34,901 nt of DNA, taken from positions 1 to 34,901 of IMG/VR virus record IMGVR_UViG_3300046520_000093. One strand, 5' to 3'. Both the position numbers and the translations under genes were made by a program. The notes under the pieces were generated by a model, which ran no database searches, was not told the DNA's origin, and worked only from the letters and a program-made list of their open reading frames with translations. Shown one piece after another: positions 3,510 to 30,349 of this stretch. Every line of letters starts with the position of its first letter. Positions within the stretch are counted from its first letter, which is position 1. Source of the DNA: a virus.

Positions 3510-4832
3510 TTATCTTTCGTAAGTGTACCCGTAGACGAACATACTCATTTGTGCGCCAGAAACACCTCCCTGCACGGCGACACCGAACTGGCTGAAAGTT
3601 AGGCCTGGCTCTCGGCTTAATTCAACCTCGTGAGAGATGAGTGCATTATTGACAGCGTTACTCTGGCTGCCGACCACCTGCATAAAGTTGCCAGCGGTTG
3701 GCGATGACTGCTGCTCTGGCAAAAAGTAATAAGCCAGAGAGATGACATTCGTAACTGTTAGCAAGTGGGTGGCGGTCTGAACCGGAGCGACAGGAGCTGG
3801 GCTTACTGGGGAGTACGTCGTCGCCCCCCATTGTGTTACCAGCAAGAAAGGGGCTGTCGTTGAAGCCGCCTGAGTGTACGTGATGCGGTTTTTTGCGACG
3901 TCGTGCCGCCATCTGTACATGTTGCTGGAGGAGTTAGCCAACAAGCTGCCTAAGTATCGACGGCTTGCATCGCCGGTCTTCTGGTATGCGGTCCCGTTGT
4001 ATTTTACCGGGGCGGCTGAGCTGAACTCCAAATCGGGGACGCCAGCGTTAAGGTACAAGTAAACGTGGGTGAACCCGCTTGCCGTGAGGGTTATCGCGGT
4101 CTTGACGATGTCGGCGCCAACTACGATGCGAGTCCCGCTAGGAAGACAGGCAACGCCAGGACCTACAGTCATTGCTCGAGCGCTCTGAAAGGACATCTGC
4201 AGGCCTTCGATGTATCCTTTGCCTACGCCCAGGTTGGCGGCGGTAGCAGCCGACGCTGCAGCGTTCGTTTCCGACACGGCCGCTGCGTTCTTCGATGACA
4301 AAGCATCTGCGGCCGAAGCACCGGCATTTGTTTCAGATGCGGCGGCGGCATTTTTGGAGGCTAAGGCAGCAGCTGCAGAATCAGCTGCATGCCCTTCGGA
4401 GGTAACGGCTGAGTTCTTCGAAATCAGAGCGGCGCTTGCCGAGTTGCCGGCATTCGTCTCTGAGGTGGCCGCTGCATTTTTGTATGTCAGTGCTGCTGCG
4501 GCCGATTGGGATGCCTCGGTGACGCTCTCCTCCAAGCCGTCCAGCGCATCGCCCACCTGCAACGATGCCGCGCGTAACGCATCGGCTGTGTCCTTGTTGT
4601 AACCCTGCATCGGTGCTAGGGCGTAGAATCCAGCGGATGTCGTGGCGCCCCGATAATTCGGCGCAATGGACATTGCCGCGTCGCTGGCAATGTTGGTGAC
4701 TTCATACCAATCACCGTCCGGTCCTTGAAAGGCATCCCCTACCCGACCATTGGCAATAAACGCGGTACCTGCGCCGATCACAGCGTTGGAATTTTGGACA
4801 ACAGAAACCGACCCGGTTTTGTACCAGCTCAT
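3510..4832 (-). CDS. Tail fibre protein
   Basis: 440 residues. An N-terminal domain (about 1-85, MSWYKTGSVSVVQNSNAVIG) resembles the attachment domain of phage fibre proteins. Then come about 110 residues of alanine-rich repeats (units such as SAAAALASKNAAAASETNA, about 95-205), characteristic of rigid trimeric fibre shafts. A C-terminal beta-rich domain (about 210-440) is the likely receptor-binding part. The repeats explain a spurious alanine-rich open frame on the plus strand. The next gene downstream is its chaperone. This is the part most likely to vary between related phages. Confidence 0.85.
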   Translation of the reverse strand: MSWYKTGSVSVVQNSNAVIGAGTAFIANGRVGDAFQGPDGDWYEVTNIASDAAMSIAPNYRGATTSAGFYALAPMQGYNKDTADALRAASLQVGDALDGLEESVTEASQSAAAALTYKNAAATSETNAGNSASAALISKNSAVTSEGHAADSAAAALASKNAAAASETNAGASAADALSSKNAAAVSETNAAASAATAANLGVGKGYIEGLQMSFQSARAMTVGPGVACLPSGTRIVVGADIVKTAITLTASGFTHVYLYLNAGVPDLEFSSAAPVKYNGTAYQKTGDASRRYLGSLLANSSSNMYRWRHDVAKNRITYTQAASTTAPFLLVTQWGATTYSPVSPAPVAPVQTATHLLTVTNVISLAYYFLPEQQSSPTAGNFMQVVGSQSNAVNNALISHEVELSREPGLTFSQFGVAVQGGVSGAQMSMFVYGYTYER

Positions 4833-4853
4833 GAATTACTTCCTTTATTGGGC

Positions 4854-5534
4854 TTACACGGCGAGCTTTGCGAACACAGCCGGCAGAAAGAACGCGTAGG
4901 GATTTGCAGCCGCGACAGTGATCGCGTAGAGCTGGTTATTTGGGAAATCCCACCAGCAGTAGAGATTGCGCGGTATGCCGCTGCCCGACGTCATGTTCAT
5001 GCCGAAGGTGTTCAACAACATGTACTCGTTCTGCGGGAAATCGAATGGAACGCTGTAATAGATCCGGGTTAGGCCCTGGGCGTCCCTGTCATCCCTGACG
5101 TAGGACCAGTTCTGAAATGCCCGGGTGAAAGTAGCGCAAGAGGTTCCGGAATCGAACAGCAGGTTTCCGCCACCATCCCACAGCCGCATCCCGTAAACGG
5201 AAGCCGGCTGCGCGCCAAACGCGGCAACAAAGTACCGGCCATTCGGCTGCGCTGTGAGCGCGTTATACGCCCGAACATAGAATCCGACCCAATTCCCGGC
5301 CGACCCGATAAGCCGCATCCGGCAGAGACCAGCCACGGCGCCCACCGTGTCGGGTCGAACAAACACCAAGGGGGGCTCCTGCGAGGTGACCGGCCTGGCG
5401 AAGTAGGTGGTCGACCCCATCCCTGACTCTTCCGTCGGCGCGAACCGGCCGGATGCGATCACCATCAAGCGAGCAAACTCGGAATCAAGGGTGACGACAT
5501 TGCTGTTGTTCGTAAATTGCAGTCCATAGCTCAT
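4854..5534 (-). CDS. Tail tip-associated protein of unknown role (226 aa)
   Basis: A 226-residue protein rich in aromatic residues and beta-strand pattern, with no signal peptide or membrane segment. ATG 5534 overlaps the upstream stop as TGATG and has GAGG and GGAG sites before it, so the two genes are translationally coupled. Its phrase VYGMRLWDGGGNLLFDSG resembles YGMRIWGADGALQVDEN in the gene before it, so the two share a short recurring domain (YGMR-W-G--G-L--D). The position between J and the fibre suggests a part of the tail tip or fibre base. I know no function. Confidence 0.75.
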   Translation of the reverse strand: MSYGLQFTNNSNVVTLDSEFARLMVIASGRFAPTEESGMGSTTYFARPVTSQEPPLVFVRPDTVGAVAGLCRMRLIGSAGNWVGFYVRAYNALTAQPNGRYFVAAFGAQPASVYGMRLWDGGGNLLFDSGTSCATFTRAFQNWSYVRDDRDAQGLTRIYYSVPFDFPQNEYMLLNTFGMNMTSGSGIPRNLYCWWDFPNNQLYAITVAAANPYAFFLPAVFAKLAV

Positions 5535-5857
5535 CAGCTCCACCTCATCACAATCAGACGCATCGTGCCGCTCGACACGGTGCTCGCTGCGAATGTGCGC
5601 GTGTAGTTGTAGACCCGCGCCACCCCATTGAGCATTTCGGTTTCAAACTGCATCTGGCTGTCGCCGTAGGCGTCAATGGGAACAACAATCGCGGTCCCGT
5701 TGCCTGGACCGACACCTGGCACAGAAAAGTCCTGGTTGCCTTTACTCGCTCCCGCCGGAAACGTCACCAGCACCGACAAGGCCACGCGGATCGTGAACGA
5801 GTTTTCATCGACCTGAAGCGCGCCATCGGCGCCCCAGATCCGCATTCCATATGCCAT
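5534..5857 (-). CDS. Small J-distal tail protein (107 aa)
   Basis: A 107-residue beta-rich protein beginning MAYGMRIWGADGALQVDEN. It starts 3 bp after the J stop, with GGTGA from the end of J as ribosome site, and ends in a TGATG overlap with the next gene. The N-terminal motif recurs inside the next protein (YGMRLWDGGGNLLFDSG), which indicates related modules. By context it is a minor tail tip or fibre-connecting component; the function is not known. Confidence 0.75.
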   Translation of the reverse strand: MAYGMRIWGADGALQVDENSFTIRVALSVLVTFPAGASKGNQDFSVPGVGPGNGTAIVVPIDAYGDSQMQFETEMLNGVARVYNYTRTFAASTVSSGTMRLIVMRWS

Positions 5858-5860
5858 TTA

Positions 5861-8800
5861 TCACCCCAAGTAACCAAGACGGACGCGCAGCACACCATTG
5901 ACGTCGTAGACAGAGACGTTCAGCGAATTGATCACCAAGCGGCCCTGACCGGGAACGATACCGTTGATTTCCAGCGTTCCATCCTTGTTGAGAATCCAAC
6001 CCTGCGTGCCGGCGATGTAATTGGTCGAGCTGATGTAACTGCCGATTTTCGCGTTGGTGATGGTGCCATCCAAGATGAACGCCGAATTGAGGAATGCCTG
6101 ACCACCCTGCACCGCGAACGGCACAGAGATCGCGCCACCGGCGATGGTGTTGACGATGGCGAACCGATCCGCGCTCACAAGGAACTGGCTTTGGAACACC
6201 CCGCCCACGTTCTCGATGCCAAGCCCAACACCTGCCGCGACATACTGGCCATTGGCGGTGACCGACATTTTCACCGACCACATGGTGCTCAGATTACCGT
6301 CCAGGTCTGCAAACGCCTCGGATGTCTCCTGAATAGCTGAGGTGTTTTCCCCCACGCTAGCGGTCAACTGGGTGATCTTGAAAGCGGTCACCTCTTCATT
6401 GGTGGCGACAACCTGCTCGAGCGTCGTGAGGTTGGCAGAGTTCTCACCCACCTCAACATCGAGAGTGGTCAAACGCTGACTGAGCGCGCTGTTTTGCGAT
6501 GTCCGTACCTTGACCTCCTGCGCGAAGCTGGCAGTGGCGTTCCAGCCGCGCAGAGCGTCAAGCGCGTCCCCATTGCCGTCGTCGTCGCGAGTAGCCGAGC
6601 GCAAGGCTTGCAGGCTTGTTGCCTGGGCTGTGACCACGCCGTCGATCTCGGTGATATCGGCGGTGTTGGTCGCAACCTGCTGTGCCAGGCCGTTGGCGGT
6701 TTGCACTGTCTGGCCAACGTCGAGCCAGTAAGCAGGGTTAGGCGGCGGCGTGTTCAGCGGAACATCACCAGTTGCCTGATAGATCCGCTTGCCGACTACC
6801 ACCAGGTCGTACTCTTCGTAGGTTGCGTCCGGGTCATACGCCTTGAGGCCGTCCAGCGCATCGATCTGCGCCTGAAGCCCCGGGATCTTGTCGATTTCAT
6901 CGAGGATGTCCTGTCCCAGCTCCGTGCGGCCAATCTCGCCGGCAATCATTTCCAGAATCGCCGCTGCGTCTGCACTCGATTGACCCTGGACACCCATCCC
7001 GACCGGATACCACGGACCAATATTGCCGATCCGATCCACCAGGCGCGCCCAGAAGTAAAAGGTCACGCCAGCCCGCAGACCAAGCATCGAGAAGTCGCTC
7101 TGAGGGTAAGCCAGGTCCGTCAGCTTGCTCGCTGCCTCAAGGTCTGTGGTTGGCCCGTACCAGACCTCAGTGCGCTGGGTGTCCTCGGCGCCAGCCGGGA
7201 ATCCCCATTTCAAGTAGATACCGAACAGCAGCGGCGTGGCCGTGAGGTATGACACCGCTGGCGGAAGACCCTGCTTGCCGCTGAGATTGGTCAGGATCGA
7301 GTTGCGCCAGATCGACGAGATGTCGAAGGCGCTCACAGCCCGGACGCGGGCCACGTAGGCACCGGCGTAAATACCGACCACGTCCACGTTCGTACCGCCG
7401 GTGCGTTGGAGCTTGATCCAGTTGCCACTGTCCTTGCGCCATTCCACGTCATAACCGACCGCGCCATTTACGGCGGGCCAGCTGATGGTCATGGTGGCCA
7501 CGGCCAGCCCCTGCACGACCGACGAAGTCGACGACAGCGACACGCTCGCCGGCGCGGGAACCACGGTGATCGGAATCACGCTGATTGGGCGCTCTTCCAG
7601 GCGTGCGCCAGTGTCGATGAAAGCAAACTTGCTCGGCTCGAACTGCAACGCGCTGATCTCGTAGTCGCCTTCAGTGGTGCGCTTGGTGCGCAACACGCGA
7701 TACAGCGGGATCGCCAGATCATCGGCATCGAGTGCCCACTGCAACTGCGCCACCGGCGGTTCGCTGTAGGCCACGGTCACGGTGACAGCCCGGCCATTCA
7801 CGCTCTGCACGGTCCGACCTTCGGCGCGGCCGCCCGGCAAGTTAATGATCAGGCGATCACCTGCCTTTGCTTGCGTGTCGCGGTCGAGCGTAATAACGCG
7901 GCCTGCCGCCGCCGAGATCCGGCCGCCAACCTCACGACCAGCCAGCAACGAATCCGCCACCGGAATGATGTGCCCCGGCAGCGGAATCACGCCTTCCATG
8001 CCAGTCTTGAAGGTGACGGTGCGGTCCTGATTGTTGCTGAGGATCGCCCACTTACCGCGGCGCTGGGCTTCGGACGCTCGGGTACAGCCAATGGCACTGA
8101 GTTCGGTCGGGCGGTCGCCATAACGGCGCTGAAGATCCAGGTCAGCGAACGGAATGACGTCGGTGTCGTAGTTGTTCGCTGGATTGTCGTAGCTGACCAG
8201 CGCCCGGGTGTAACGAGTTTTCGCCGAAGCGCTGCCGTATGAGAATTTGCCGTCGATGACGTTCGACCGGGTAAATACGTAGTCGAAGTCCTGCGCACGC
8301 GGCATGTCCGCTTGCATCACCAGCTGGCCCTGCGCCCAGTACGTCATGCCCCGGTAAATTGCCGAGATATCGCGCAACAGTGACCAGGCATCAGCCTTGC
8401 CCTGCAGATTCATGTCACACAGAAAGCGCGGTTCAACGCCGCCGAGCCCGTTCGGCACCAGCTGGTCGCAGTATTGGGCGATTCGGTACAGCTCCCACTT
8501 ATCGACCATGAACGACTTGATGCGTTTGCCCAGGCCGAACATATCGTTGGTGCACACGCCGTAGGTGATCCACGCCGGGTTGTTGGTCCACGCCGACTTC
8601 ATCGAACCGTCCCAGGTACCGGTGTACGTGCGCAGGATCGGGTCATAATTGCTCGGCACCATCCAGCGCCGCGCCTTGCACTTCACGGTGACAGCCGGGA
8701 TGTTGGTGAACTGCTCGGCATCGAATTCGATGTAGAGCAACGCAGTGTTCGGGTAGCGCAGCTTGGCGTCGATGACTTCGGTATAACCGGCCACCAGCAT

Positions 8801-9424
8801 GGTGTCGGCGATCTTGTTGGTGTTCTGGTTCGGCGTCAGGCGGCGCACGCGGATCTGCCAACCCGTAGTGGCGTCCGGCAGATCGATGCGGCGCGAGCGC
8901 TCGTAGCGGGTTGTCGTCTTGCCGTCGACAGCATCGACCAACACCTGCTGGTAGGCACCGCCATCGGTGGCCACGTCGATGGCGTACTCGATGCGATAAC
9001 CGCCAACATTACCCTCGTCGTCAGAGCGTTGCAGCGCCGGCCATGCCAAACGCATGCGCACGGCCGAAAGCTGGGTGTTGGTGATCGAGCGCACCCACGG
9101 CGAATCGCTGCGCAGCTCAATGTTGAGCGACGTCTCGTTCTCGACTGCCGGGATGCCTGGGATATAGGTCTGATCAACCGAACCCGGGCGCCAGTCCCAC
9201 TTCACGTTGGGGAAGTTGTAGTTGCCGCTGGCATCCCGGATCGGCGTGTTGTCCAGGTAGATGTCGTAATCGGTCGGGACTTCATCGAATTCGCCCTCGC
9301 CCACGGCGATCAGGAGCTTTGCCAGGTTGGTCGAGCGCAGACTGTCGCTGGCTTCGCTCGGCGACTTCGGTTTGCTACTGCCGCCCTTCTCGCCACTAAT
9401 GTCCATCTGTAGAGCTGCGCCCAT
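5861..9424 (-). CDS. J: Host specificity / central tail fibre protein J
   Basis: 1187 residues, close to lambda J (1132). The N-terminal half has the conserved J core (about 35-500, with NLAKLLIAVGEGEFDEVPTDYDIYLDNTPI and NNPAWITYGVCTNDMFGLG-type segments, only partly quoted here). Two fibronectin type III-like modules follow around 625-800. Then comes a helical region with repeated coiled-coil segments (about 900-1040). A C-terminal part (about 1045-1187) resembles the DUF1983 domain of J-family proteins. J forms the tail tip spike that contacts the receptor. ATG 9424 has GGAGG 6 nt upstream. It follows gene I across a short gap with a terminator-like hairpin. Confidence 0.95.
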   Translation of the reverse strand: MGAALQMDISGEKGGSSKPKSPSEASDSLRSTNLAKLLIAVGEGEFDEVPTDYDIYLDNTPIRDASGNYNFPNVKWDWRPGSVDQTYIPGIPAVENETSLNIELRSDSPWVRSITNTQLSAVRMRLAWPALQRSDDEGNVGGYRIEYAIDVATDGGAYQQVLVDAVDGKTTTRYERSRRIDLPDATTGWQIRVRRLTPNQNTNKIADTMLVAGYTEVIDAKLRYPNTALLYIEFDAEQFTNIPAVTVKCKARRWMVPSNYDPILRTYTGTWDGSMKSAWTNNPAWITYGVCTNDMFGLGKRIKSFMVDKWELYRIAQYCDQLVPNGLGGVEPRFLCDMNLQGKADAWSLLRDISAIYRGMTYWAQGQLVMQADMPRAQDFDYVFTRSNVIDGKFSYGSASAKTRYTRALVSYDNPANNYDTDVIPFADLDLQRRYGDRPTELSAIGCTRASEAQRRGKWAILSNNQDRTVTFKTGMEGVIPLPGHIIPVADSLLAGREVGGRISAAAGRVITLDRDTQAKAGDRLIINLPGGRAEGRTVQSVNGRAVTVTVAYSEPPVAQLQWALDADDLAIPLYRVLRTKRTTEGDYEISALQFEPSKFAFIDTGARLEERPISVIPITVVPAPASVSLSSTSSVVQGLAVATMTISWPAVNGAVGYDVEWRKDSGNWIKLQRTGGTNVDVVGIYAGAYVARVRAVSAFDISSIWRNSILTNLSGKQGLPPAVSYLTATPLLFGIYLKWGFPAGAEDTQRTEVWYGPTTDLEAASKLTDLAYPQSDFSMLGLRAGVTFYFWARLVDRIGNIGPWYPVGMGVQGQSSADAAAILEMIAGEIGRTELGQDILDEIDKIPGLQAQIDALDGLKAYDPDATYEEYDLVVVGKRIYQATGDVPLNTPPPNPAYWLDVGQTVQTANGLAQQVATNTADITEIDGVVTAQATSLQALRSATRDDDGNGDALDALRGWNATASFAQEVKVRTSQNSALSQRLTTLDVEVGENSANLTTLEQVVATNEEVTAFKITQLTASVGENTSAIQETSEAFADLDGNLSTMWSVKMSVTANGQYVAAGVGLGIENVGGVFQSQFLVSADRFAIVNTIAGGAISVPFAVQGGQAFLNSAFILDGTITNAKIGSYISSTNYIAGTQGWILNKDGTLEINGIVPGQGRLVINSLNVSVYDVNGVLRVRLGYLG

Positions 9425-9441
9425 GCTTTCCTCCAGGCATT

Positions 9442-9463
9442 AAAAAACCGCCTCGCGGGCGGT
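9442..9463 (-). terminator. Terminator-like hairpin between tail genes I and J
   Basis: On the minus strand a 6-bp GC-rich stem (9458-9463 with 9447-9452, 5-nt loop) is followed by a run of six T. It ends about 16 bp before ATG of J. The 30-bp segment 9423-9452 is 28/30 identical to 10095-10124 before gene I. Confidence 0.65.
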
Positions 9464-9481
9464 CTGTGTGCGACGAGCTTA

Positions 9482-10096
9482 TTAAGCTTTGTCTTCAGCC
9501 AGGATCGAGGCCGAGATGATCATCCCGCCCCAGCGGCGTTCGCCGATGCAGATCGGGACCGGGTTTCCGCTGGCCGTGGTGTTCTTGGCGCTGCCGAAGG
9601 CGTAGGACGGGGAGTTTTCGGGCGATGCGCTTTGCGAGAGCCCCTTTGCTTGCGGGCTGAGCATCTGGATAACGCCGCCGGCGGTAGAAGCAATACCTGC
9701 GGCATACAGCGCGGATACCGCTGGGCCTGAAAACGCACCGAAGGGGTTGAAGTAAGCAAGTGCGATCAGTACGGCTCCAACCACTGTTTGAAGCACCCCA
9801 GCTCTCTTGCTGCCCGAGATCACCGGAACGATCTTCAAAACCCTCGTTCCGGACAAGCCGAGCTCGCTCAACCCTGCGCTCTTGCCATTTCTATAAATTG
9901 CAAAGCGCATCCCAAGTCGATCAAGCCTTTTTATTTCCTCCTGAAATCCAGCAAGGATGATGCTGAGTGCTCTGAAGACCTCCGTCGCTTGCCCTGAATC
10001 CAGCAGCAAGTGATGGACTTCACCGAATTTGTTCGCGAGCTGCCTAGTCAGGTGAACACGTGTTCTGGGCGTGTAATGAGCAACTGTGGCCGCCAT
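9482..10096 (-). CDS. I: Tail assembly protein I
   Basis: 204 residues in the position of lambda I, directly before J. An N-terminal ubiquitin-like region (about 1-90) is followed by a Gly/Ala-rich hydrophobic region (about 100-155, VVGAVLIALAYFNPFGAF) and a Ser/Asn-rich segment ending NPVPICIGERRWGGMIIS. The last part resembles the conserved end of lambda tail I family proteins. I is needed to assemble the tail tip but is not found in the mature virion. The frame stays open to 10150, but ATG 10096 has a proper GGAG site and is chosen. A terminator hairpin precedes it. Confidence 0.88.
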   Translation of the reverse strand: MAATVAHYTPRTRVHLTRQLANKFGEVHHLLLDSGQATEVFRALSIILAGFQEEIKRLDRLGMRFAIYRNGKSAGLSELGLSGTRVLKIVPVISGSKRAGVLQTVVGAVLIALAYFNPFGAFSGPAVSALYAAGIASTAGGVIQMLSPQAKGLSQSASPENSPSYAFGSAKNTTASGNPVPICIGERRWGGMIISASILAEDKA

Positions 10097-10113
10097 GCTT
10101 TTCTCCAGGCAAT

Positions 10114-10136
10114 AAAAAACCGCCCTGAGGCGGCTT
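10114..10136 (-). terminator. Terminator-like hairpin before tail gene I
   Basis: On the minus strand a GCCGCC/GGCGGT stem with a G-T pair and a 4-nt loop is followed by six T (10114-10119), then the GGAG site and ATG of I. It is the sister of the hairpin before J. Confidence 0.65.
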
Positions 10137-10149
10137 GAAAAAATGGTCA

Positions 10150-10506
10150 CTATCGGGAGCAGTTCCTAACGACATCCGTAACGCTTGACGATGGATCCTG
10201 CCACGTTCGATAGAAGTGGTAAGCAACCATGGACCCGTTTGGAGTCGGCGTTACGTCAGCGACATGCCAAGGTGATTCTGAGTTAGGCGCTATCACCGAA
10301 TATTTTTCGCCGGAAGTCTGTAAAACGCCTCCTACGCTACCGCCAATCAACGAAGTTCCTTGCCATCCATCACGGATGCATTCGGCGACAAGCTTTGCGG
10401 ACTTACTTGAAGAAACCTTGACGATGGGCGGGTTACTCCGAATGTCGTTCGTGGTCGCGCACCCCGCCAACAGTGCTACCGCCAACGCTCCTACGATCAG
10501 TTTCAT
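10150..10506 (-). CDS. Phage lipoprotein between tail genes K and I
   Basis: 118 residues with a clear lipoprotein signal MKLIVGALAVALLAGC; Cys16 is the lipidated residue. The mature part is small and beta-rich with two cysteines (in AECIRDGW and VRNCSR). ATG 10506 has AGGAG 8 nt upstream; the frame extends to 10536 without a better start. It has the orientation of the late genes but lies next to the plus-strand moron block. It could be a late membrane protein or an independently expressed moron. Lambda has no counterpart at this place. The function is unknown. Confidence 0.78.
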   Translation of the reverse strand: MKLIVGALAVALLAGCATTNDIRSNPPIVKVSSSKSAKLVAECIRDGWQGTSLIGGSVGGVLQTSGEKYSVIAPNSESPWHVADVTPTPNGSMVAYHFYRTWQDPSSSVTDVVRNCSR

Positions 10507-10611: not shown

Positions 10612-11103
10612 ATGCATTCTCGCGTCTTCGACACACTAGTCATCTTCGCCATTCTGGCGGGGACCGCAACCGCTGCCCAACCAAGTGCCAACGACCAGTT
10701 TCCGCATATTCCAGTGATGGCCCATCAAACAATGACCTACAACGGAAAGGTCATCTACGAAGCAGACGTGGATCAAAACGATCCAAAGCGCAAGCCGTTT
10801 GTTCTCCGAGTAGAGGTTGATAACCTGACAAGTGATTGCGCCACCACCACGGGGAATGTTGCGGGTGCTGCCTCACAGGATAGAAGCATGGGGCAAAAGG
10901 CATCATCTGCATACATGGTGAGCTGCGTGGTGACAGAACTATCATCTGATGGAAAAGCGAAAGCCGATGTCATTTACAGCATCCAAGATGGAACGCGCAA
11001 CATACATAAGTCCGGGCACGTCAAAGCGGGTCTGCAAGTAGGAGAGGTATACAAAACTACCAGTAATGACTCACATGTGACTCTGCTTCTGCAGACTTAC
11101 TGA
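10612..11103 (+). CDS. Secreted protein, antisense moron (163 aa)
   Basis: A Sec signal peptide (about 1-22, hydrophobic core LVIFAILAG, cleavage near TAA-QP) leads a mature protein of about 140 residues with beta-strand pattern and two cysteines that could pair in the periplasm. AAGGA lies 9 nt before the ATG. It is transcribed against the late operon and begins the plus-strand block between tail genes K and I. I recognise no family. Periplasmic phage products expressed from a prophage are often involved in superinfection exclusion or fitness, but this is not shown here. Confidence 0.78.
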   Translation: MHSRVFDTLVIFAILAGTATAAQPSANDQFPHIPVMAHQTMTYNGKVIYEADVDQNDPKRKPFVLRVEVDNLTSDCATTTGNVAGAASQDRSMGQKASSAYMVSCVVTELSSDGKAKADVIYSIQDGTRNIHKSGHVKAGLQVGEVYKTTSNDSHVTLLLQTY

Positions 11104-11355: not shown

Positions 11356-11940
11356 ATGGAAGGCCTTTCTGCTGAGGTGATACCAGTTCTCCAGCAGCTG
11401 ATGCCTGGCTTCTTGGCGATGATCGTTTTCTATTGGTTCGCGGAAATTCCGAAGCCAGCATATTTTGAAAAGATTCTACAGGCACTTATCAGCACGGCGA
11501 TTATTCAGGTTTTTGTTTCAGGTACCGAGAGCCTGTGCTATCTGATTGGCAACTTTGTAGACTTTGGCGTGTGGAGTGAAGCTTCGACAAGCTGGACCGC
11601 TATTGGCTATGCCGCTCTTATGGGCGGGGTCCTTGCGTATTTGTGCAATAACGATATTGCATTCTCAATAGCAAGAAAACTGAATCTGACCACTCGCGCT
11701 TCCCAGAGCGACGCCATCCATGTTTACAAGCAAATGGCAGCTCATCCAGTGATTATCCACTTTACGGATGGCCGTCGAATGATGGGCTACATTGATGCTT
11801 TCCCCAATGACAAGCAAACCGGTATTTATTTAATAAGCAGTCCGCACTGGATCGATGGCGAAAGCACGGTCCCGTCGCCTGGCACGCACTCGTATATGAT
11901 CCAAGGAGCAGACGTCCAGCGGGTCGAGTTTCTAAATTAA
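11356..11940 (+). CDS. Membrane protein with C-terminal beta-barrel-like domain (DUF6338-like)
   Basis: 194 residues. Three hydrophobic segments (about 10-29, 40-66 and 81-98) form a membrane anchor. A soluble part (about 110-194) carries a strand pattern typical of small SH3- or Sm-like barrels (VIIHFTDGRRMMGYIDAF at 132-149, GIYLISSPHWIDGE, then VQRVEFLN). It resembles DUF6338-type proteins from memory; this is unverified. AAGGA lies 7 nt before the ATG. Its stop TAA overlaps the AAGGAG ribosome site of the first of three proline-rich microprotein genes. These four genes end at one terminator, so it is the head of a four-gene operon running against the phage late genes. Confidence 0.8.
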   Translation: MEGLSAEVIPVLQQLMPGFLAMIVFYWFAEIPKPAYFEKILQALISTAIIQVFVSGTESLCYLIGNFVDFGVWSEASTSWTAIGYAALMGGVLAYLCNNDIAFSIARKLNLTTRASQSDAIHVYKQMAAHPVIIHFTDGRRMMGYIDAFPNDKQTGIYLISSPHWIDGESTVPSPGTHSYMIQGADVQRVEFLN

Positions 11941-11951
11941 GGAGAAAAACA

Positions 11952-12110
11952 ATGAGCGACAAACGATCTACTGAAGAGCTTCTCCAGAAAGGCTTGTTGA
12001 GAGACATACATGAAGGCTTCAATCTAACACCGCCAGGCACACGAAACGCGCTACCTACCAGCGTACCCAAAGCGCCGCCGCCTGCTCCTGAGAAACCAAA
12101 AAATGGCTGA
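11952..12110 (+). CDS. Proline-rich microprotein 1 (52 aa)
   Basis: A 52-residue protein in two parts: a charged helical N-terminus (MSDKRSTEELLQKGLLRD) and a proline-rich tail with LPTSVPKAPPPAPEKPK. The ribosome site AAGGAG overlaps the stop of the membrane protein gene at a 7-nt gap, indicating coupled translation. The last 8 bp overlap the start of microprotein 2 (ATGGCTGA). The motif LP-x-x-x-PKAPP recurs in the next two genes. The first six residues MSDKRS are also found at the start of the gene at 12583. No known family. Confidence 0.72.
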   Translation: MSDKRSTEELLQKGLLRDIHEGFNLTPPGTRNALPTSVPKAPPPAPEKPKNG

Positions 12111-12279
12111 GAATCCCGTCGTCACGGCTGAAGAGCGAGAACTACTTCGCAAGCTTAGGAATGGTGAGGTGACCTATTCCCCAGAAAATCATGTGCCGCC
12201 AAATGTAATACGTCGTCCCTTGCCGACTGTGGTACCTAAGGCGCCGCCGGCACCTCCTGAAAAACCTAAAAGCTCGTGA
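12103..12279 (+). CDS. Proline-rich microprotein 2 (58 aa)
   Basis: A 58-residue protein: an acidic/basic helical N-terminus (ERELLRKLRNGE) and a proline-rich tail RRPLPTVVPKAPPAPPEKPK. It starts inside the end of microprotein 1 (8-bp overlap), so translation is probably by re-initiation. The tail is closely similar to microproteins 1 and 3, but the N-termini differ. This points to duplication with conservation of the tail only. The function is unknown. Confidence 0.72.
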   Translation: MAENPVVTAEERELLRKLRNGEVTYSPENHVPPNVIRRPLPTVVPKAPPAPPEKPKSS

Positions 12280-12286
12280 GGGTCCT

Positions 12287-12409
12287 ATGACTTCAAAAAA
12301 ACCCAACGGGCCTACACATACCCAAGATGGTTTTTCACCTACGAGTGTCCGGCGTCCTTTACCTAACCTGCCACCCAAAGCTCCACCGCCTCCTAAGAAG
12401 CCGTCTTGA
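12287..12409 (+). CDS. Proline-rich microprotein 3 (40 aa)
   Basis: A 40-residue protein, nearly half of it a proline-rich tail (RRPLPNLPPKAPPPPKKPS, residues 22-40). GAGGG, partly formed by the stop of microprotein 2, lies just before ATG 12287. RPLPNLP has the form of a class I SH3 ligand (R-x-L-P-x-x-P), which is rare in bacteria. It is followed after 5 bp by a Rho-independent terminator, which marks the end of the operon. The frame is too short for most gene finders; support comes from similarity to its two neighbours and the coupled spacing. Confidence 0.68.
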   Translation: MTSKKPNGPTHTQDGFSPTSVRRPLPNLPPKAPPPPKKPS

Positions 12410-12414
12410 TAAAC

Positions 12415-12437
12415 AGCCCGCTCTCGCGGGCTTTATC
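12415..12437 (+). terminator. Rho-independent terminator ending the microprotein operon
   Basis: A 7-bp stem AGCCCGC/GCGGGCT (12415-12421 with 12426-12432), loop TCTC, followed by a T-rich tail. Confidence 0.75.
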
Positions 12438-12582: not shown

Positions 12583-12828
12583 ATGAGCGACAAAAGAAGT
12601 CTGACTTCATTTGAGATGGGAACTGTAGCCGCAATTACATTGATCGGTACTGCGCTCGCGGCGTTAGATCCTTCTAAACGGGAAAAAATCAAGGCGTCAG
12701 CCGAATCGCTTTTGCAGTTTCTACCTGATGACAAAGAACTAGCAGATGGATCATCTGCGCATTACGTGGCTCTCAAAGCGCTGATTTCAGGTCTTTACCC
12801 AGGGGAGTCAAACAAATCTTCTGAGTGA
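12583..12828 (+). CDS. Small membrane-associated protein, antisense moron (81 aa)
   Basis: 81 residues with one hydrophobic segment near the N-terminus (about 13-28, GTVAAITLIGTALAAL) and a charged, mainly helical C-terminal part. AAGGA lies 9 nt before ATG. It begins MSDKRS, the same six residues as microprotein 1, and the DNA around both starts is alike. This suggests it belongs functionally with the upstream operon although a terminator and about 170 bp of leader separate them. It converges with tail gene K. No family recognised. Confidence 0.68.
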   Translation: MSDKRSLTSFEMGTVAAITLIGTALAALDPSKREKIKASAESLLQFLPDDKELADGSSAHYVALKALISGLYPGESNKSSE

Positions 12829-12938: not shown

Positions 12939-13703
12939 TCATGTAATTGATTGTGCATCTTTATGCCTAAGAATCAGGCGCGTACGGTCGAGCCACGGAC
13001 CGCCGAAGACGATGACCTCTGATGGCCGTCCGTACAGGTGGTGCAGCAGGAACGGACCCGGGCCAAACGTCGCAGCATCCTCGCCGGGCAGCGCCGGATC
13101 AGCTCCGAGGAATATCCCGGCATGGTTCGGGTAAACCGTCCGCCCCACCTCCATCACGATCATGTCGCCGCGCTGCGGCTGATCAACCCGGTAGAAGCCG
13201 GCGGCCTCGTAGTTGGCTTCGTACAAGCTGGTGTTGTCCTTGCTCTCCCACCAGCCATCGGCGCGCTTGAAGGCTTCGAACTCCAGCCCCCACTCGCGTT
13301 TGTACCAATCAGCGCAGACCTGCCAGCAGTCCCAGGCACCATGTACGAACGGACGCTTCAGCAATTGGACATCGCCGGTCGGCATGAGGGTGCGCAGGTC
13401 GCCCTCTGGCCAGCTGAGGATGTGCCATGGCAGCGCCGTCGCCTCGCACATGGCCAAGTCACGCGGCGAAGGTCTGCTGGTTGCGTCCGGATGCGAATGA
13501 ACCACACCCGTAACTTCGCCGATATCCTCGGCCGCAGCGTATTCCTCCGGATCGATCCGAAATTCCTCGTTCGGCTCGCTGGAAACGTTGCGGCACGGGA
13601 AGTACTGCTGTTTTCGTCCGACCGCTAACAGCAGCCCGCAGCACTCTTTCGGGTACTCGGCCGCCGCGTGCACCTGGATCGCATTCAAGATGTGCTTTCG
13701 CAT
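12939..13703 (-). CDS. K: Tail assembly protein K (JAMM protease plus NlpC/P60)
   Basis: 254 residues with two enzymatic domains, as in lambda K. The N-terminal JAB/MPN domain (about 1-115) has Glu20, the metal-binding HSHP at 69-72 and the following S-x-x-D at 79-82. The C-terminal NlpC/P60 domain has the catalytic Cys126 (in HGAWDCWQVC) and His194 (in YPNHAGIFLG). The product probably processes tail tip proteins and may cut peptidoglycan during DNA entry. ATG 13703 uses the AGGAG at the end of gene L and is preferred to an in-frame start at 13718. In lambda I follows directly; here about 2.8 kb of mostly plus-strand genes separates them. Confidence 0.93.
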   Translation of the reverse strand: MRKHILNAIQVHAAAEYPKECCGLLLAVGRKQQYFPCRNVSSEPNEEFRIDPEEYAAAEDIGEVTGVVHSHPDATSRPSPRDLAMCEATALPWHILSWPEGDLRTLMPTGDVQLLKRPFVHGAWDCWQVCADWYKREWGLEFEAFKRADGWWESKDNTSLYEANYEAAGFYRVDQPQRGDMIVMEVGRTVYPNHAGIFLGADPALPGEDAATFGPGPFLLHHLYGRPSEVIVFGGPWLDRTRLILRHKDAQSIT

Positions 13704-13704
13704 G

Positions 13705-14454
13705 TCAGCTCCTGGCAATCAGGGATACAGCCGGGAAGCCACCGAACGGAAGCGGGTTACCCTCGCCAAAGCGCGGAATACACCCCCGGCCCAGCGTGGC
13801 GTCACACTCGTCCAGTTCAGGATTGTCGGTGGGTAATCCGTCCTTCGTGACGTAGCCGCCGGTGTAGCCGCAATTCGGCCCCCGGTAGCCGCCGGTGAGG
13901 CACCAGTGGCAAAGGGTTGTGGCTTGCCGACCGATGGATTCGTTTCCGACGTCGCCCGGGCTGGCTAACTCCCAGCTGACTGTTTCCCCGTCCTCATTTG
14001 TTTTCTGGTCGATGTACCAGACCTCGATCGTCTCTTGGGTAGGGTCGGCTGTCAGGTTTCCGGTCGGGAAGTTCGCCGCATCGAGGTACGTGCCCAGCGT
14101 GTGGCGCATCGTCAACTTGAACTCGAGAAGATCCTCGAACGCCAAGCACAGCGCGGTGATGCGACCGTTGACGTTACCGACCGAAAGCGTGGGCCGCACT
14201 ACCGTCCCATCTCCGTTTGCCTCGATGCCGTCGATCTGCATCGGCCAGGCGCTGTACTCATTGCCCTGCCAATAGATTGCCTTCGCCGGCAACTGGTCTG
14301 CATCGGCGCCGGCTGCGATCAGTTCGGCGGGTGTGTGCGGAATCGCATGCCCGTGGAAACGCAGAACGTCTGCGCCGTAGTCCGTGCCGTCCAATTCAAG
14401 GAGCAGCACTTCACTGCCGGGCTCAAGCACCTGGATGTCACTGATCAGCGGCAT
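13705..14454 (-). CDS. L: Minor tail protein L
   Basis: 249 residues, the usual size of the lambda L family. The C-terminal domain has cysteines at 182, 185, 195, 217 and 225 (CHWC, NCGY, ECDATLGRGC), the pattern that binds an iron-sulphur cluster in lambda L. The N-terminal domain is beta-rich and joins the tail hub. It lies between M and K in the standard order, with the stop just before the start of K. Confidence 0.93.
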   Translation of the reverse strand: MPLISDIQVLEPGSEVLLLELDGTDYGADVLRFHGHAIPHTPAELIAAGADADQLPAKAIYWQGNEYSAWPMQIDGIEANGDGTVVRPTLSVGNVNGRITALCLAFEDLLEFKLTMRHTLGTYLDAANFPTGNLTADPTQETIEVWYIDQKTNEDGETVSWELASPGDVGNESIGRQATTLCHWCLTGGYRGPNCGYTGGYVTKDGLPTDNPELDECDATLGRGCIPRFGEGNPLPFGGFPAVSLIARS

Positions 14455-20698: not shown

Positions 20699-21001
20699 AT
20701 GACAGGTTCAAGCGGATTACAAAATTTGAAGAATTCTGTAGATGATCTGAAGCACGCTATGGCGAACAACCATGGAAATATTCCCGCCAAAGCACTGACA
20801 GTTAAACGGTTGCTGGCTGAAGAGATCGCCACGTCCCCCCTAAAAGATCAGTACTTAGAGATTTATGATGACTGTTTCCCTTATGGAGGCTCCCCTAACA
20901 TTGACCTTTTGGATGAGCTTGCGAACGGCGGTATAACCAAGAGATTGCCACTCACCGGTAAATATTGGTCCAGTAAGTTAGAAGAGGCCCTTGGGCTTTA
21001 G
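20699..21001 (+). CDS. Small soluble antisense moron (100 aa)
   Basis: A 100-residue, mostly helical protein with no signal or membrane segment. AGAGG lies 6 nt before ATG 20699. GC is lower than in its neighbours. It fills exactly the gap between two minus-strand head-tail genes: its stop overlaps the connector gene stop by 4 bp (TTAG, 20998-21001), and its start lies 41 bp from the adaptor start. The precise fit suggests insertion between gene boundaries. No family recognised. A promoter was not found. Confidence 0.72.
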   Translation: MTGSSGLQNLKNSVDDLKHAMANNHGNIPAKALTVKRLLAEEIATSPLKDQYLEIYDDCFPYGGSPNIDLLDELANGGITKRLPLTGKYWSSKLEEALGL

Positions 21002-23879: not shown

Positions 23880-23979
23880 TTGTTATCTCCCAGAGACGTT
23901 GGTGCAGGCCCTGCCTGCGATTGGAGGTGCTTTACTACGGTTAGGTGATATTGATTCTCTACTGATTGGGTGTAGCGCA

Positions 23980-24480
23980 ATGACAGACAAAACGAGTGAA
24001 TCAACCAAGACCGGCCTGAAAGCGATTTGGTTTACGCTAATTGGCGTTGTAATCACTGCAGGTATTAGTTGGTCCTCCACCTACCAAGCAGCATCTGTTG
24101 ACTCCCGTAAGTCTTGCCTCGCACGGCTCGATGCGAAGGAGTCAATTATCCGGGGCAAGGCCGAGACCTTTTTTGCGTCTATAGGAAACTTAACGGCATT
24201 GGCGTCGCACCGAGCGCGAGATAATCAAGAATATGACAGACGGATTGATGCAGTCGTAGTAGCTGCGTTCTCTCTCAGCCCATACCTTGATCGTAAAACA
24301 TACGAAACACCCAAACTTATAGCCCAAAGAGTTGCGGAGATGTTTTATTCAAACAAATCAGAAAAGGATATAAAAAAGGATGAGCAGAACAGCAAAGTGA
24401 TTTTGGAGCTTCTAAATAAATGGACCGACGAATATAACGCTCTGATGGACGCATTTGAGTCCGCCAAAGAAGGATGCTAA
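23980..24480 (+). CDS. Single-pass membrane protein, antisense moron (166 aa)
   Basis: 166 residues with one N-terminal membrane segment (about 15-33, AIWFTLIGVVITAGISW) and a charged, mainly helical remainder. AT-rich compared with the head genes. ATG 23980 is chosen because the upstream extension overlaps the scaffold start region; the ribosome site is weak. It lies between scaffold and head morphogenesis genes, and its stop overlaps the latter's stop by 4 bp (CTAA, 24477-24480). An exclusion or signalling function is possible, but no family is recognised. Confidence 0.72.
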   Translation: MTDKTSESTKTGLKAIWFTLIGVVITAGISWSSTYQAASVDSRKSCLARLDAKESIIRGKAETFFASIGNLTALASHRARDNQEYDRRIDAVVVAAFSLSPYLDRKTYETPKLIAQRVAEMFYSNKSEKDIKKDEQNSKVILELLNKWTDEYNALMDAFESAKEGC

Positions 24481-29398: not shown

Positions 29399-29524
29399 GC
29401 CGTCTCCCAGTCGGATTGCTTGGTTGTCATGGGTTTTAAAAAAGTGCTAACAACGATGATTGAAATACTGGCCATCTGCCCCAATTACAGCCCATTCATT
29501 CCCCTCTTCGCATACGAGCGTCCC

Positions 29525-30349
29525 ATGGCACGAATAGACTTTACGAAGCCAACTAAACTGCAATTAGGTATCAGGGTGAACTTCAAGTGCGTTTACCCAG
29601 GCTGTGACAGGGTCACGAATGGCCCAACTGCTGCTGGTGACCGAGTTATAAGTATTGGCATAGCCGCCCACGACGCAGGGGCTTCCCCGGGCGGACCTCG
29701 CAGCGACCCCGCATTAACACCGGAACAAATCCGGGCATACGAAAATGGCGCATGGTTATGCGCTACTGATGCCACTCTGGTAGACCGGGATACGCGATCG
29801 TTTCCACGAGGGACTCTTTCAGGCTGGCAATCAGCGGCTGAAAATCGTGCAAGTCGAGCGATGTACGTAGCGCCAATCAGCACCCATGCAAGCACCCAAG
29901 AAGTGTGCTCCAAGCTTTCCGCTTTTTTGACAGCAGCTCGAAAGATTCGATTTACGCTCTATTCGATAGGAAAGGAAAACACAACTTTCACTCGAGATAG
30001 CATTCGAGAAGCTTGGACGTTTATCGATAATTGCTCTGGTCCTCGCTGGAAACCAACACACCCTCTGCACTCACTCCATCCACATACGGTTGCGATTCAA
30101 AATGAAGCTATAGGTTGTTTGAAGGCAATTTATGATGAAGTGACCAATCGGGATTGCTGGGAACTTGACGAATACGGGCACCAGTACCAAATGAAGCAAT
30201 TGGTTAGCGCATTCCGGCCAACTTTGACTGAAGCGCAGCAAATAGGCATCGATAGAATTTACAGCTGCTACGAGCGTTACCTTAGACATATTGACGAGTT
30301 GAAGACCTACGAAAAGGGTGAAGGACACAATATCTATTCAACATTTTGA
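29525..30349 (+). CDS. HNH-like protein with altered metal site, antisense moron
   Basis: 274 residues. The N-terminal domain (about 1-110) follows the HNH pattern: a knuckle C22-x4-C27 (FKCVYPGCDR), then IAAHDAGASPGGPRSDPALT with His49, then AYENGAWLC with Asn74 and Cys79. The position expected to hold the last Cys or His is Asp82 (WLCATDATLVD), so metal binding may be weakened. The C-terminal domain (about 115-274) is helical and unrecognised. ATG 29525 suits the family N-terminus; other in-frame ATGs at 29429 and 29456 are possible. It is antisense between the holin and metallopeptidase genes. It may be a defence nuclease or a relative of packaging HNH proteins. Confidence 0.75.
   Translation: MARIDFTKPTKLQLGIRVNFKCVYPGCDRVTNGPTAAGDRVISIGIAAHDAGASPGGPRSDPALTPEQIRAYENGAWLCATDATLVDRDTRSFPRGTLSGWQSAAENRASRAMYVAPISTHASTQEVCSKLSAFLTAARKIRFTLYSIGKENTTFTRDSIREAWTFIDNCSGPRWKPTHPLHSLHPHTVAIQNEAIGCLKAIYDEVTNRDCWELDEYGHQYQMKQLVSAFRPTLTEAQQIGIDRIYSCYERYLRHIDELKTYEKGEGHNIYSTF

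Follow-up and report, generated by a model that had tools for sequence, protein, structure and literature searches.

A DUF6338 membrane protein with a predicted Sm-like barrel and its proline-rich microproteins form a recurrent, probably defensive gene module of prophages and bacteria

Results

Organisation of the operon in the prophage

The window analysed here is the whole stretch of 34,901 nucleotides of the IMG/VR record IMGVR_UViG_3300046520_000093, a lambda-like siphophage whose tail genes lie on the minus strand. Between the NlpC/tail-assembly gene (12939-13718) and a tail assembly gene (9482-10150), we found a plus-strand insert with a GC content of 48-54%, as compared to about 60% on either side. 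It carries a gene for a DUF6338 membrane protein followed by three genes for proline-rich microproteins, and the following features were assigned:

11356-11940, plus strand: DUF6338 membrane protein, 194 aa (Pfam PF19865; AlphaFold2 pLDDT 88.3)
11746-11931, plus strand: predicted Sm/LSm-fold beta barrel, residues 131-192 (Foldseek against the PDB; conservation in the 50-row alignment A7)
11952-12110, plus strand: microprotein 1, 52 aa, head starting MSDKRSTEELLQKGLLRDIHEGFN (orthologues in L003, L010, L012 and L044; dN/dS)
12051-12107, plus strand: proline-rich tail of microprotein 1, LPTSVPKAPPPAPEKPKNG (sequence; motif statistics)
12103-12279, plus strand: microprotein 2, 58 aa, head containing LRKLRNGEVTYSPEN (its first 8 bp are the last 8 bp of the microprotein 1 gene; dN/dS)
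12211-12276, plus strand: proline-rich tail of microprotein 2, RRPLPTVVPKAPPAPPEKPKSS (sequence; motif statistics)
12287-12409, plus strand: microprotein 3, 40 aa (dN/dS)
12350-12406, plus strand: proline-rich tail of microprotein 3, RRPLPNLPPKAPPPPKKPS (sequence; motif statistics)
12415-12432, plus strand: intrinsic-terminator-like hairpin with a 7 bp stem, closing the operon

The genes are tightly coupled. Two junctions are overlaps of a stop codon with a ribosome binding site, which read taaggagaaaaacaATG and tgagggtcctATG, and the genes of microproteins 1 and 2 share 8 bp at 12103-12110. An earlier note on this DNA had described four coupled plus-strand genes ending at one terminator, and all coordinates and junctions were confirmed. 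With minus-strand tail genes on both sides, the cassette lies antisense in the tail module, as the note had also proposed. These data support the view that the operon is moron-like cargo of a Pseudomonas prophage. A pattern-based scan, which is uninformative for Pseudomonas, gave no sigma-70-like promoter upstream of the operon.

Other plus-strand genes were seen in this region. Just upstream in the same low-GC insert, the ORF 10612-11103 encodes 163 aa with a signal-peptide-like N-terminus and a weak match to phrog_9559 (E 0.0036), and it may be a further cargo gene. Downstream of the terminator, the plus-strand ORF 12583-12828 encodes an 81-aa protein (phrog_17867, E 1.4e-17), of which a copy with 94% identity is present in L007; since this locus was not returned by the DUF6338 searches, the protein may be a separate cargo. 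The plus-strand ORFs 1047-1790, 20699-21001, 23899-24480 and 29420-30349 within the minus-strand late region possibly represent additional prophage cargo.

The membrane protein is predicted to end in an Sm-fold barrel

The window protein belongs to the Pfam family DUF6338 (PF19865) with an E value of 1.9e-7 and 31.3 bits, above the gathering cut-off of 26.5. The Pfam entry gives no function and contains nothing on microprotein partners, and PHROGs has no family for either DUF6338 or the microproteins. AlphaFold2, run on the 50-row alignment, yielded a model with a pLDDT of 88.3 and a pTM of 0.67. In this model, three helices predicted to span the membrane (residues 2-28, 36-65 and 75-98) are followed by two short helices (101-108 and 119-127) and by a six-strand C-terminal barrel at residues 131-192. 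Comparison of the predicted model with the PDB by Foldseek gave 1i4k as the best match (E 1.1e-4, TM-score of 0.82 for the target); there were 68 matches at E <= 1e-3, and the best 50 of the 68 were all Sm/LSm proteins. DUF6338 is thus predicted to consist of three transmembrane helices and a cytosolic C-terminal barrel of the Sm/LSm fold. The C-terminal domain had been suspected from the sequence to be SH3- or Sm-like; the barrel and the Sm/LSm assignment stand, and the SH3 alternative does not appear among those best 50 matches.

Conservation in the alignment A7 (50 rows) concerns both parts of the protein. The residues P17-G18-F19, Q42-A43-L44, G90 and R107 are invariant or nearly so, and D138, R140, R141, G144, P150, G156, P163, W165, E191 and F192 are near-invariant in the barrel. 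The protein shares the barrel fold with Sm/LSm proteins such as AF-Sm1 (1i4k); however, it is anchored in the membrane by three helices and has no sequence similarity to any PDB chain detectable by a search with the window protein. The Arg-Gly of the Sm2 motif of archaeal and eukaryotic Sm proteins was not seen by eye in A7, a motif that some other Sm-like proteins lack too. MscS channels have the same order of elements, three transmembrane helices and then an Sm-fold beta domain, but DUF6338 does not have their C-terminal alpha/beta cage. Profile comparison gave no similarity to MscS (hhalign probability 0.6%), and kinship was rejected.

DUF6338 and the microproteins recur together

Relatives of the window protein were gathered from viral contigs, bacterial genomes and plasmids. 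A narrow profile run over the genome collection returned a single locus, and the wide profile A4 was needed. To count as a microprotein, an ORF had to be 25-80 aa long, to contain at least six prolines in its last 25 residues and to begin within -60 to +40 bp of the DUF6338 stop; the 352 other genes of at least 150 aa in the same loci served as background. By this rule, a microprotein stands beside DUF6338 in 74 of 88 distinct loci and beside only 4 of the 352 background genes, one of the four being DUF6338 itself in another frame call. The Fisher p value of 4e-64 is nominal because the loci are related by descent and not phylogenetically independent, and the argument rests on the range of families in which the pairing occurs. 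Among the 14 misses, most have a microprotein that falls outside the filter (L008, L057, L059, L061, L063, L074 and L098), and others are cut by the contig end (L068) or frameshifted. The pairing was found again in two later sets that had not been used for the rule (23 of 24 genomes and 8 of 8 loci). The earlier note had named a lack of microprotein relatives next to homologous membrane proteins as a refutation of its view; the outcome speaks strongly for that view, and the recurrence in all three sets indicates that the operon arrangement is not due to chance. We conclude that DUF6338 and the microproteins form one conserved multi-gene module, which is well supported.

The number of microproteins per locus ranges from one to seven. 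It is one in 61 of the 79 loci counted and four in three loci; five were found in L080 and seven in L085. In the latter locus, the seven tandem proline-rich microproteins stand behind one DUF6338 gene (4001-5610) and form the longest array found. The module extends to the planctomycete Paludisphaera borealis, where a plasmid encodes a DUF6338 protein of 28.6% identity and a microprotein, MSADQKPPNPPREQTNGGRNEITRGQGTDGPPALTRPLPTPPPPPPKQS, whose gene overlaps the end of DUF6338.

Conserved tails, distinct heads and purifying selection

The three tails share LPTSVPKAPP, LPTVVPKAPP or LPNLPPKAPP, and RRPLP is present in microproteins 2 and 3, as had been read from the window. Across loci, the tails follow the positional motif R/L-P-x-x-P-P-x-A/P-P, with proline at 95%, 85%, 77% and 99% of four key columns. 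RPxxPP occurs in 41% of the tails as compared to 5-8% of shuffles, showing that the order of residues is conserved and not the composition alone; on this sequence evidence, the tail has the look of a recognition motif. It does not follow the class I SH3 ligand pattern that had been proposed, since [RK]xxPxxP is no more frequent in the tails (0.53) than in shuffles of the same tails (0.49). The microproteins contain 26% proline and carry a mean net charge of about +4, and a Shine-Dalgarno match of at least 4 nt precedes 97 of 117 microprotein genes.

All three microproteins have recognisable orthologues, and both heads and gene order are kept in L010 and L012. The head of microprotein 2, for instance, reads LRKLRNGE-TYSPEN in L010 and has a close variant in L044. 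Because each head is kept, in the same order, in orthologous loci, these are three distinct conserved proteins. The view that differing heads are carried on a conserved tail is therefore correct, except that the heads are not arbitrary. Several clades have a short head of low complexity, and profile searches of Pfam and PHROGs gave no likeness of the heads to a known domain. The changes between orthologues are mainly synonymous, with pS of 0.5-0.9 and pN of 0.08-0.29 for the more distant pairs. Where it could be calculated, dN/dS was 0.03-0.15 for microprotein 1, 0.08-0.17 for microprotein 2 and 0.10-0.46 for microprotein 3, much like that of DUF6338 (orthologues in L003, L010, L012 and L044). 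All three microproteins are thus under purifying selection.

The proteins detected in P. stutzeri are members of the family

Three novel proline-rich proteins of less than 50 aa, encoded in an operon with a DUF6338 gene, were reported in P. stutzeri ATCC 14405 (PMC10433244). In the proteomics described there, 44-114 spectra were assigned to each microprotein and none to the DUF6338 protein. In the same source, the proteins are stated to have no conservation beyond the species and to be possible de novo genes, and antimicrobial roles are raised for proline-rich small proteins (PMC10433244). The operon (Pstu14405_RS12030; our L148/L222) has the same layout as that of the window, DUF6338 and then three proline-rich proteins with the same tail motif. 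In L222, DUF6338 and the third microprotein are both read in frame +3 and the other two microproteins in frame +1, in agreement with the frames given in PMC10433244 for the gene and SEP2 and for SEP1/SEP5, respectively. The matching reading frames show that the published proteins belong to the DUF6338-microprotein family, which extends beyond P. stutzeri. Hence, while no relatives outside the species are reported in PMC10433244, they are widespread here. The two operons differ in location, that of ATCC 14405 being chromosomal, between Gabija and PDC-S06, and that of the window lying in a prophage tail module.

Prophage, defence-island and ordinary chromosomal locations

The prophage copies are mostly situated among tail genes, and some are near the antitermination gene Q, a methyltransferase or other genes. 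Both neighbours are on the opposite strand in 19 of the 44 prophage cases that could be scored. Prophage exclusion proteins and tail-region morons are known from such places, as are HK97 gp15 and, by position, lambda lom. Morons of this type likewise lie within or close to the tail module and are often encoded on the opposite strand, but they are single genes, whereas here a membrane protein comes with one to seven microproteins.

Several non-prophage copies lie in defence islands. The P. stutzeri copy stands between Gabija (GajA, E 1e-277; GajB, E 1e-257) and the candidate system PDC-S06; AbiEi and a TniQ-like gene are close by. In G119, the module has a TnsB/TniQ element on one side and Thoeris on the other, along with SIR2-HerA; in G002, it is beside a type III CBASS (NucC, TRIP13, HORMA, cyclase and CapP); in Paludisphaera, it is directly behind IetA-IetS; and in G733, it is beside an OLD-like ATPase and a RelA/SpoT gene. 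Two further observations concern these islands. The operon detected by mass spectrometry is part of an island (L222, 4059-11993) with a TniQ-like gene and with Gabija and PDC-S06 on either side, which is not mentioned in the part consulted of PMC10433244. In L119, a 373-aa DUF4062 protein is encoded on the minus strand (8752-9870) between type III CBASS and the DUF6338 module.

The P. fluorescens-type clade (L024-L041 and similar) lies outside such islands. Its copies have one microprotein and stand beside LysR, GMC oxidoreductase, Pyr_redox and ABC genes, and they served as an internal control, with 3 PADLOC families matched by 89 neighbours in eight neighbourhoods as compared to 132 matched by 98 neighbours in the remaining ones. 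The module can thus also exist as a stable pair of chromosomal genes, and the near absence of defence genes at these ordinary loci suggests that defence may not be its only role. No model of PADLOC-DB 2.0 matched the window DUF6338 protein, the best E value being 0.008 and obtained with two relatives only.

DUF6338 is present in 54 of 399 Pseudomonas genomes, 34 of 398 genomes of the family, 3 of 392 of the order and 6 of 398 of the phylum (the draws overlap). A plasmid search returned Paludisphaera only. None was found with four queries in 50,697 isolated phage genomes, so that laboratory phages carrying DUF6338 are lacking. The distribution is patchy and cargo-like.

A tethered model of the tail and the barrel

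The reading frame of microprotein 1 continues that of DUF6338 beyond its stop in five viral loci, so that a stop-readthrough single chain can be folded from natural DNA. In the resulting model, the head was disordered with a pLDDT of 47-51, the tail of 62 and the very C-terminus of 77, values to be read with the tethering of the chain and with the tendency of polyproline to raise pLDDT; only the tail end of the microprotein gained confidence. The pLDDT of a free disordered end usually falls, and the rise to 77 therefore fits docking. The support given by this model is weak because the chain is tethered. Taken with the other observations, it is moderately suggested that the tails may dock on the barrel.

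Discussion

The module described here is probably a defensive, previously undescribed bacterial system, and its pairing was seen in no fewer than 80 distinct loci of prophages and bacteria, often beside known anti-phage defence genes. In the literature searched, DUF6338 was mentioned solely in PMC10433244; no structure or mechanism of DUF6338 was found, and nothing relevant tied proline-rich small proteins to prophages, defence or Sm proteins. Neither the general module nor the Sm fold, the tail motif or the defence context is described in that literature, which has a family by name and one reported locus. Three microproteins detected by mass spectrometry and regarded in PMC10433244 as restricted to one species are one case of a widespread, selected gene family. 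DUF6338 gains partners, and many overlooked short genes gain a reading.

From the genomic context, an anti-phage role appears the most likely one, and we favour it without great assurance. We propose, with a probability of about one half, that prophages express the docking complex as a device for anti-phage defence or superinfection exclusion. One or more soluble, mostly disordered microproteins would dock by their proline-rich tails on the Sm-fold barrel, which, by analogy with Sm proteins, would perhaps form a ring offering several sites; different heads would thereby be displayed together on one membrane complex. The microproteins would hold the membrane protein in a resting state. The trigger could be the loss of short-lived microproteins after host shut-off by a phage, or the capture of a head by a phage component; the released membrane part would then disturb the envelope and stop the incoming phage. 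We infer each of these elements, the tail-barrel contact, the ring, the trigger and the output. If the tails dock on a membrane Sm-like barrel, the Sm fold would here be put to an unusual use. The role in defence can be tested directly in a sequenced laboratory strain in which expression is already documented (PMC10433244).

Two more specific forms of this proposal can be considered. It is conceivable, and put forward tentatively, that a membrane Sm-like ring binds up to seven microproteins by their common tail, their heads being interchangeable sensors or baits for phages, on prophages, Tn7-like elements and defence islands. The other form, a scarce membrane effector kept in check by abundant and short-lived microproteins, is rather doubtful and one of several possibilities. 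Membrane proteins are expected to be under-detected in proteomics. The restraint by labile microproteins would fit the spectral counts reported in PMC10433244, where the microproteins were detected and DUF6338 was without peptides.

Among the alternatives, DUF6338 could be a scaffold to which the tails anchor the microproteins, while the heads block phage or host components; exclusion would then result from recruitment and involve no channel or toxic membrane activity. The conservation of each head across orthologous loci, the number of microproteins (1-7), as expected if each has its own target, and the position of prophage copies among tail genes are consistent with it, but 61 of the 79 counted loci have a single microprotein, and the heads are short and of low complexity in several clades and resemble no known domain. 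We consider this scaffold unlikely. Less likely again would be a housekeeping or regulatory membrane Sm-like complex tuned by proline-rich peptides, acting in RNA handling or stress and carried by prophages and islands for a fitness benefit that has nothing to do with defence. The Sm fold is best known for RNA binding, and the P. fluorescens-type clade occupies ordinary loci devoid of defence genes. Expression in ordinary P. stutzeri cultures, as described in PMC10433244, points the same way. Against such a complex stand the patchy distribution (54/399 Pseudomonas genomes and 3/392 in the order), the repeated location beside Gabija, Thoeris, CBASS and IetAS, and the Sm2 Arg-Gly, not seen by eye in A7.

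It is very improbable that the microproteins act as proline-rich antimicrobial peptides or translation inhibitors and that DUF6338 exports them or confers immunity: the proline content of 26% and the mean net charge of about +4 are of the expected kind, but no signal peptide or leader is visible, conservation concerns the C-terminal tail and not the whole peptide, and the PRP core is depleted (6% vs 21% in whole-sequence shuffles), which rules against such peptides. Finally, an origin of the short ORFs as chance frames or as recently arisen de novo genes, which their small size and low complexity and the species-restricted de novo origin considered in PMC10433244 might suggest, is already refuted by the adjacency (74/88 vs 4/352), the purifying selection, the mass-spectrometric detection reported there and the copy in Planctomycetota.

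Decayed copies of the cassette were also encountered. In L003 (1485-1680), microprotein 2 has lost its frame by one base while its neighbours are intact; this cassette copy is 88% identical and is found in a different context, behind a helix-turn-helix regulator. DUF6338 copies broken by stops or split frames are present in several Pseudomonas chromosomes (genomes G377, G354 and G1423; loci L030 and L039), some of them with the microprotein intact.
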